DNA from: Prevotella sp.
GTDB taxonomy: Bacteria; Bacteroidota; Bacteroidia; Bacteroidales; Bacteroidaceae
Assembly (NCBI GenBank): GCA_016291915.1
Contig: JAEEZP010000027.1
Coordinates: forward strand, 1 to 39,478
Direction of reading: 5' to 3'
DNA length: 39,478 nt
A model generated the notes under the pieces. That model worked only from the letters and a program-made list of their open reading frames with translations. It did no database searches and was not told the origin of the DNA. Made by a program: the position numbers and the translations under genes. The first letter of the stretch is position 1; every line of letters starts with the position of its first letter. Positions 10,809-12,302 of the stretch are shown here, one piece after another.

Positions 10809-10850
10809 AAAAAGAATAAAGGGCGGTAAATTCCGCCCTTTATTCTTTTT
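10809..10850. terminator. Bidirectional terminator between proS and the DUF1232 gene
   Basis: 18-bp perfect stem AAAAAGAATAAAGGGCGG / CCGCCCTTTATTCTTTTT, loop TAAATT; overlaps the 3' end of the DUF1232 CDS. Confidence 0.85.
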
Positions 10851-11229
10851 CAAATAAATGGTTGATCTCCTCTATCTCGTCGGTATCAAACCATTGGTTG
10901 AGTTTATTCTTTGCCTTTTCTTTCACCTCTTCTGACACTTCTCCCCATACCTTTTGTAGTACGAAGATCAATACAGCCATATCATCACCGAGTCCGGCAA
11001 TGGGGATAGCGTCAGGAACCACATCCAATGGACTGATCAGATATCCCAAGGCACCGATAATGATGGCCTTATCTTTCAAAGACACTTTATCACTCTGTAA
11101 GGTATAAAATAAGATCAACGCCGCATATACGAGCTTTGCACCGGCTCGCTTGGCAATGCGGGATATCTTCTCAACAAATTCAGATTTTGTGAATTTGTTA
11201 CTATATTGCATAAAATCAGGTACTTCCAT
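10840..11229 (-). CDS. DUF1232 / YkvA-family membrane protein
   Basis: SDKVSLKDKAIIIGALGYLISPLDVVPDAIPIAGLGDDMAVL motif. Confidence 0.9.
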   Translation of the reverse strand: MEVPDFMQYSNKFTKSEFVEKISRIAKRAGAKLVYAALILFYTLQSDKVSLKDKAIIIGALGYLISPLDVVPDAIPIAGLGDDMAVLIFVLQKVWGEVSEEVKEKAKNKLNQWFDTDEIEEINHLFEKE

Positions 11230-11275
11230 ATTTTGAATAATTTATAATTAAATGCGTAATCGTACAATGAACGTA

Positions 11276-11308
11276 CAAAAGTATTAAAAAGTGCCTTTTT
11301 AACACAAA
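11276..11308 (-). promoter_or_regulatory. Putative Bacteroidetes promoter of the DUF1232 gene
   Basis: Minus strand: TTTG (11308-11305), ~21-nt spacer, TACTTTTG (11283-11276). Confidence 0.5.
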
Positions 11309-11313
11309 TATTT

Positions 11314-11344
11314 TTGCTAAATAAACAAAAAAATATTATCTTTG
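11314..11344 (+). promoter_or_regulatory. Putative Bacteroidetes promoter of the structured RNA upstream of ribE
   Basis: TTG (11314-11316, in TTTTTG), 20-nt spacer, TATCTTTG (11337-11344). Confidence 0.6.
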
Positions 11345-11349
11345 CATCA

Positions 11350-11575
11350 GAAGAATGTAACGATTACAATAGAGAAGACAAAATATAGGTCGTATCGGTT
11401 AGATCGGGATACTCATCAAATAAAAACGAAAACCGAGAAGACACCTTTTGCTAATGGCGGGCCATATAAAGTTCTTCGGAACCTAAGTTGTATAACCGGT
11501 GGATTACAAAGGCGGAGGGCTCTCAAATCTTATTAGCTCGGAGTTTCATCACATCATCGGTACGACCTTTTTTTA
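11350..11575 (+). ncRNA. Structured ncRNA or leader candidate, possibly 6S-like
   Basis: Own promoter; closing helix AGGTCGTATCGGT (11387-11399) with ATCGGTACGACCT (11556-11568), 13 bp including two G-U; followed by TTTTTT. Internal helices 11433-11437/11537-11541 (CCGAG/CTCGG), 11444-11455/11503-11512, and a UUCG tetraloop hairpin (11471-11482). Confidence 0.5.
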
Positions 11576-11594
11576 TTCTTAAACCCAAATAACT

Positions 11595-12197
11595 ATGTTT
11601 TCCGGAATTATTGAAGAATTTGCTACCGTTGTGGATATCCGCCACGACAAAGATAATATTCACTTTATGCTTACCTGCTCCTTTGTGAATGAGTTGAGCA
11701 TCGACCAGAGTGTTTCCCATAACGGGGTATGTCTCACAGTCGTAGAGATAACTGATAATACGTATGTCGTTACAGCCATGCGGGAGACCTTGGAACGTTC
11801 TAATCTCGGACTACTGAAGGTGGGTGACAAGGTGAACGTGGAGCGTTCTATGCTCATGAACGGTCGTTTGGACGGTCATATCGTACAGGGACATGTGGAT
11901 ATGACTGCCACCTGTATCGCCATGGAAGACGCCGCCGGCAGTACTTATTTCACCTTTCAGTATCCCTACGACCGTGAGATGGCAAAAAGAGGGTATTTCA
12001 CAGTTGACAAAGGTAGTGTGACCGTCAACGGTGTCTCCCTCACGGTGTGTAACCCTACCGATGACACTTTCCAGGTAGCTATCATTCCTTACACTTTCGA
12101 GCATACCAATTTCTGTGATATCCAGGTAGGTACGGTAGTGAATATCGAGTTCGATATCCTCGGCAAGTATATTGCCCGCTTGCAGAGTTTGGTGTAG
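11595..12197 (+). CDS. ribE: Riboflavin synthase, alpha chain
   Basis: MFSGIIEE start, duplicated lumazine-binding repeats (NGVCLTV, VNGVSLTV), GHVD motif. Confidence 0.95.
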   Translation: MFSGIIEEFATVVDIRHDKDNIHFMLTCSFVNELSIDQSVSHNGVCLTVVEITDNTYVVTAMRETLERSNLGLLKVGDKVNVERSMLMNGRLDGHIVQGHVDMTATCIAMEDAAGSTYFTFQYPYDREMAKRGYFTVDKGSVTVNGVSLTVCNPTDDTFQVAIIPYTFEHTNFCDIQVGTVVNIEFDILGKYIARLQSLV

Positions 12198-12247
12198 AGT
12201 TCATAGTTCAAAATTCATAGTTCAAAATTCATAGTTTAGAGTTCTCA
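12192..12247 (+). repeat. Heptanucleotide tandem repeat overlapping the ribE stop codon
   Basis: GTGTAGA GTTCATA GTTCAAA ATTCATA GTTCAAA ATTCATA GTTTAGA GTTCTCA; ribE stop TAG is inside the first unit. Confidence 0.85.
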
Positions 12248-12253
12248 CCGATT

Positions 12254-12302
12254 TAACTATTAATTATTAATTATTAACTATTAACTATTAATTATTAACT
12301 CT
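12254..12302 (-). repeat. Inverted heptanucleotide tandem repeat upstream of nudC
   Basis: TAACTAT TAATTAT TAATTAT TAACTAT TAACTAT TAATTAT TAACTCT; reverse complement has ATAGTTA units resembling GTTCATA. Confidence 0.8.

Follow-up and report, generated by a model that had tools for sequence, protein, structure and literature searches.

A Bacteroidales-1 RNA directly upstream of riboflavin synthase is very probably the 6S RNA gene of a rumen Prevotella

The stretch of Prevotella DNA analysed here (39,478 nucleotides, hereafter the window) carries at 11388-11573(+) a genuine small-RNA gene belonging to the Bacteroidales-1 family, and we consider it very probable that this element is the 6S RNA gene of a rumen Prevotella, acting as a mimic of the open promoter, with a promoter that probably also feeds the neighbouring riboflavin synthase gene, ribE. 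By imitating an open promoter, 6S RNA sequesters RNA polymerase. The family is already known, and the RNA is an ordinary member of it except for its position, in Prevotella, directly before the riboflavin synthase gene. The closest ribE to that of the window, 99% identical, belongs to a Prevotella metagenome-assembled genome from buffalo rumen. The features of the locus are as follows:

11313-11316, forward strand: -33 element TTTG of a Bacteroidota primary-sigma promoter (sequence; TTG spacing in homologues)
11337-11344, forward strand: -7 element TATCTTTG, consensus TAnnTTTG (sequence; conservation upstream of homologues)
11351-11387, forward strand: putative 5' leader, from the predicted start to the closing stem (distance distribution among homologues)
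11388-11573, forward strand: 6S-type RNA, RF01693 Bacteroidales-1 (full-length cmscan match)
11388-11398, forward strand: closing stem P1, 5' strand, pairing with 11557-11567 (11/11 pairs compensated)
11402-11414, forward strand: upper closing stem, 5' strand, with GAU 11402-11404, GGGA 11406-11409 and ACUC 11411-11414
11415-11434, forward strand: central bubble, 5' strand, AUCAAAUAAAAACGAAAACC (unpaired in the consensus)
11435-11456, forward strand: internal stem, 5' strand, opening with GAG 11435-11437 (covariation)
11462-11502, forward strand: distal stem, 11462-11465 with 11499-11502, and variable apical loops (covariation)
11507-11524, forward strand: internal stem, 3' strand, closing with CUC 11522-11524 (comparative structure)
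11525-11540, forward strand: central bubble, 3' strand, AAAUCUUAUUAGCUCG (comparative structure)
11541-11555, forward strand: upper closing stem, 3' strand, GAGU, UC-UC, AUC (comparative structure)
11557-11567, forward strand: closing stem P1, 3' strand, pairing with 11388-11398
11568-11574, forward strand: terminator-like U-tract, T7, directly after the closing stem (sequence)
11595-12197, forward strand: ribE, riboflavin synthase alpha chain (open reading frame; the RNA lies upstream of Prevotella ribE loci)

Family membership is unambiguous. The search against Rfam proposed in the preliminary description, run over the whole window, returned exactly one match over cut-off, RF01693 at 11388-11573(+), which covers model positions 1-179 of 179 with 144 bits (cmscan, E 2e-24; curated cut-off 60 bits) and includes all the conserved blocks of Bacteroidales-1, with no match to the 6S or FMN models. 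Canonical 6S (RF00013) found no match up to E 10 in the region 11000-11900, nor any in 40 relatives, such that the RNA has no match of its own to the canonical model. Rfam describes RF01693 as '6S-Bacteroidales RNA suggested', and its distribution is that of a near-universal gene, usually in single copy and preceded by primary-sigma promoter elements, as is the case for 6S: RF01693 exceeds its cut-off in 241 of 249 genomes of the taxonomic family, is present in all 22 of its genera, and occurs once in the window's genome and in all but one of the 241 carriers. The sole genome of the 249 with two matches, G202, has them at equal score (C4:14470-14645(-) and C89:440-615(-)), likely an assembly duplication.

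The promoter described upstream of the RNA, TTG-N20-TATCTTTG at 11314-11344, is present in the sequence, with 20 nt separating TTG (11314-11316) from TATCTTTG (11337-11344), and TAnnTTTG is the consensus sequence for sigma ABfr, the primary sigma factor of Bacteroidota (PMC7366714). As TAnnTTTG occurs within 90 nt upstream of the RNA in 118 of 132 homologous loci (7% in shuffles), with a TTG placed 18-22 nt ahead of it in 111 of the 118 (shuffles 11%), the promoter is conserved. Transcription is predicted to begin near 11351; the resulting leader is longer than in most relatives and may be processed off. At the other end, the U-tract noted behind the closing helix is confirmed as T7 at 11568-11574, and a run of at least four T lies beside P1 in 29 of 34 loci of the window's genus. 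Outside the genus, at loci L025-L054 and others from non-Prevotella genomes, a hairpin terminator of its own usually stands behind the RNA (77 of 97 loci by a simple scan, which gave false matches inside ribE at L001 and L002 and whose count for the window's genus is left out). The 3' end of the RNA may therefore result from processing at these loci, in contrast to Prevotella, where the U-tract directly follows the closing stem.

Folded on its own, the window RNA has an energy no better than that of its shuffles (z = -0.14), and the helices consequently needed comparative support. This came from a purely sequence-based alignment (A1) of 88 non-redundant homologues that exceed the Rfam cut-off. 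Across A1 a rod of 41 pairs has 93.9% of its cells paired, compared with 37-48% in controls with slid partners; part of this excess is to be expected, A1 itself having supplied the consensus from which the rod was derived. Stronger evidence for the rod is provided by compensatory changes on both sides, which occur at 32 of the 41 pairs, so that the covariation analysis called for earlier backs the proposed 6S-like layout of closing stem, central bubble and internal stem. Under a tree-based, R-scape-like null that is harsh on this strongly structured sample, three pairs reach E < 0.05 and a fourth 0.13, all four lying within the proposed structure. The 13-bp closing helix described at 11387-11399 and 11556-11568 is found in the sequence, and each of its 11 core pairs (P1, 91% paired in the 88 sequences) shows compensatory changes, yet none of the 11 is part of the Rfam model, which holds the internal and distal stems only and leaves P1, ACUC/GAGU and the GAG/CUC boundary unannotated. 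Above P1, the GAU, GGGA and ACUC segments pair with 11553-11555, 11546-11550 and 11541-11544, respectively, and pair 11412/11543 changes from C-G to G-C in L010 and L011 and to U-A in L087. Pairing is complete (100%) at GAG/CUC (11435-11437 with 11522-11524), where A-U also gives way to G-C; the adjoining internal-stem helix covaries at each of its 12 pairs, and the distal stem has 4/4 pairs compensated and 99% paired. Of the UUCG-capped hairpin reported earlier, the sequence GUUC-UUCG-GAAC stands at 11471-11482, while the apical part to which it belongs is variable among relatives.

The dimensions of the central bubble require correction: previously given as about 6 nt on the 5' side and 24 nt on the 3' side, it spans in the comparative structure about 20 nt (11415-11434) and 16 nt (11525-11540). 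G-C pairs flanking the central bubble are a recognised 6S feature (PMC4064990), and here they are conserved on both sides, as C-G in 88/88 and C-G in 85/88 sequences (3 compensated) on the closing side and as G-C in 87/88 and G-C in 88/88 on the internal side; on each side a single pair of A-U type separates the two. The 3' strand carries a conserved AAAnCnU(G)U common to 6S-Flavo. Two further readings of the bubble were tried and rejected: Firstly, pairing of CCGAG (11433-11437) with CUCGG (11537-11541) is contradicted by alignment column 57, an invariant G, and column 202, an A in 16 of 88 sequences, and is also ruled out by the fully paired GAG/CUC helix with 11522-11524. Secondly, the 3' strand as a copy of the -7 element TAnnTTTG showed no enrichment over shuffles.

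Homology to a recognised 6S family comes through 6S-Flavo (RF01685). A covariance model built only from the Bacteroidales-1 RNAs of A1 (R1; 164 bits on the window RNA, which is among its own 88 rows) was run together with RF01685 over the same 148 genomes sampled from the phylum, and in each of the 13 genomes from other orders with a match to both, the best matches of the two agree in place and strand. Searched directly on RF01685 loci, R1 matched 17 of 17 (E 9e-8 to 2e-12) and recovered there the closing stem and U-tract, both absent from RF01685; pair counts on the R1-fitted alignment of these loci agree with the rod, on an alignment that leans towards the model structure and includes two chance rows. 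No RF01685 match passes its own cut-off among the sampled Bacteroidales genomes; RF01693 and RF01685 nevertheless fall in the same place on the same strand, for example in G309 (103 and 37 bits, respectively) and G343, and are co-located also at L022, L024, L088, L090, L092, L093, L094, L096 and L101. Judged by these matches, Bacteroidales-1 and 6S-Flavo are one RNA family. They share, in co-linear order, ACUCA(A/U)C, the internal stem, AAAnCnUGU, GGAGUUU, the closing stem and the U-tract, but differ in the sequence of the internal stem and in the GGCGGGCC and GGUGGAUUACAAA blocks, which are mostly missing from 6S-Flavo. As R1 finds no match at eight RF00013-type loci of other Bacteroidota and RF00013 misses the window, the link to canonical 6S runs through intermediates and one weak match, which the 6S-Flavo locus L229 gives to RF00013 across the full model (25.8 bits, under the cut-off; E 0.001 in a search of all Rfam). 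With canonical 6S (SsrS) the window RNA shares the closing stem, the central bubble bounded by G-C pairs and the internal stem; it differs in lacking an RF00013 match and in the gene downstream, ygfA there and ribE here. Neither RF00013 nor RF01685 has a match in the window's genome (G000) or in any of 23 genomes from the genus, so that these two models offer no rival 6S candidate there.

The neighbourhood of the RNA sets Prevotella apart. In the window it ends 21 nt before ribE, with a divergent gene (10840-11229) on its other side, and of the 34 loci sampled from the genus 33 have ribE nearby, 32 of them downstream on the same strand and one, L017, inverted; at L016 ribE is missing. Conversely, when loci were fetched by ribE itself, the RNA was upstream in 80 of 80 sampled Prevotella ribE loci, a sample that overlaps in part with the 34. 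The gap between RNA and ribE in 112 loci is 16-312 nt (median 40), and within it TAnnTTTG occurs in 1 locus and a downstream hairpin terminator in 8. Because the RNA precedes ribE with almost no promoter between them, transcription of ribE in Prevotella probably starts at the 6S promoter and continues through the closing stem and U-tract. Such an arrangement, with a U-tract behind the closing stem and a separate ribE promoter almost absent, would also suit a cis-acting ribE leader, the main alternative put forward earlier, which as an attenuator or a new riboswitch would sense flavin and control ribE by terminating at that stem and its U-tract. Linkage to ribE does not, however, hold wherever the RNA occurs: ribE is within 1.5 kb in 0 of 97 loci from other genera and families (some contigs end sooner), where the closing stem and bubble are equally conserved and most copies have a terminator of their own. 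This refutes a ribE leader for the family as a whole, and its homology to 6S-Flavo also argues against one. The earlier statement that no FMN riboswitch is present stands: the FMN model matches nothing in the window at its gathering score, and nothing in 11000-11900 even when matches up to E 10 are admitted. We therefore regard a ribE leader as very unlikely.

As a 6S RNA, the element would work as follows. The primary-sigma promoter would drive a transcript of ~185-220 nt that folds into a rod of closing stem, ~20/16 nt central bubble, internal stem and variable tip; by what is known of the 6S family, this rod would mimic an open promoter and capture the RNA polymerase holoenzyme that carries the primary sigma factor as cells slow down, with release following when the polymerase copies the 5' bubble strand into a short product RNA (pRNA). 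From the position of the pRNA on E. coli 6S RNA, we predict by analogy that the template is the 5' bubble strand 11415-11434 and that the pRNA starts opposite C11417, beginning 5'-GAUGAGUAUCCCGAUC. In Prevotella the same promoter would probably serve ribE as well, through transcripts that run on beyond the closing stem and U-tract. Differential RNA-seq in B. thetaiotaomicron has detected 6S RNA and two kinds of pRNA (PMC7366714), and since a Bacteroides control genome is matched by RF01693 but by neither RF00013 nor RF01685, that 6S RNA would, by elimination, be the RF01693 locus. The reported pRNAs also bear on whether the RNA might instead bind core polymerase, as does Ms1 of Actinobacteria, a polymerase-binding RNA structurally related to 6S that also has a central bubble but binds core in place of holoenzyme (PMC9130861). 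Ms1, set apart here by its description, is ~300 nt long with extra terminal hairpins (PMC9130861), compared with ~185-220 nt for the window RNA, whose homology runs to 6S-Flavo, and an Ms1-like role is thus most improbable. That a conserved structured RNA of unrelated function, for example base-pairing with mRNA, resembles 6S by chance is scarcely credible given its co-location with 6S-Flavo matches across orders and the lack of another 6S candidate in the window's genome or genus, even though Bacteroidales-1 was first described as a convincing RNA with its function left open (PMC2864571) and R1 does not reach canonical 6S loci.

The 6S reading, prefigured in the preliminary description as '6S-like', is thus upheld by the RF01693 match, the covariation-backed layout and the homology to 6S-Flavo, and the suggestion carried by the Rfam label now has direct comparative evidence behind it. 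What is added here is the covariation-supported rod, the 6S-Flavo homology and a genus-specific 6S-ribE unit, in a major gut and rumen group with an unusual primary sigma factor; the full rod can now be drawn with its closing stem and bubble, which opens the pRNA template and the polymerase contacts to experiment. In gamma-proteobacteria ssrS lies upstream of ygfA (PMC4064990), and the 6S-ribE pair, likewise a 6S gene upstream of a coding gene, is its lineage-specific counterpart. A bolder and very improbable proposal is that in Prevotella 6S and ribE are transcribed as a single unit whose internal terminator, made of the closing stem and U-tract, is regulated, with read-through altered when polymerase binds or when pRNA synthesis opens the rod; if true, riboflavin synthesis would be tied to free polymerase and nucleotide supply.

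Several minor observations were made alongside. In another family of the class, R1 matches without an RF01685 match at G493:C1:1337817-1338013(-) (E 4.5e-7), G563:C2:181725-181919(+) (E 5.8e-5) and G466:C15:293250-293451(-) (E 9.2e-4) are possible unannotated 6S RNAs. Three Bacteroidales loci each have a sub-threshold match to the paralogous FopS sRNA family (RF04319), which lies downstream of the 6S gene at a distance of ~0.7-0.9 kb (L088:2352-2433(-), L070:2327-2407(-) and L069:2520-2595(-)). In the window itself, ribE is followed at 12198-12300 by an AT-rich intergenic stretch with short direct repeats of the units TTCATAGTTCAAAA and TTAATTATTAACTA.
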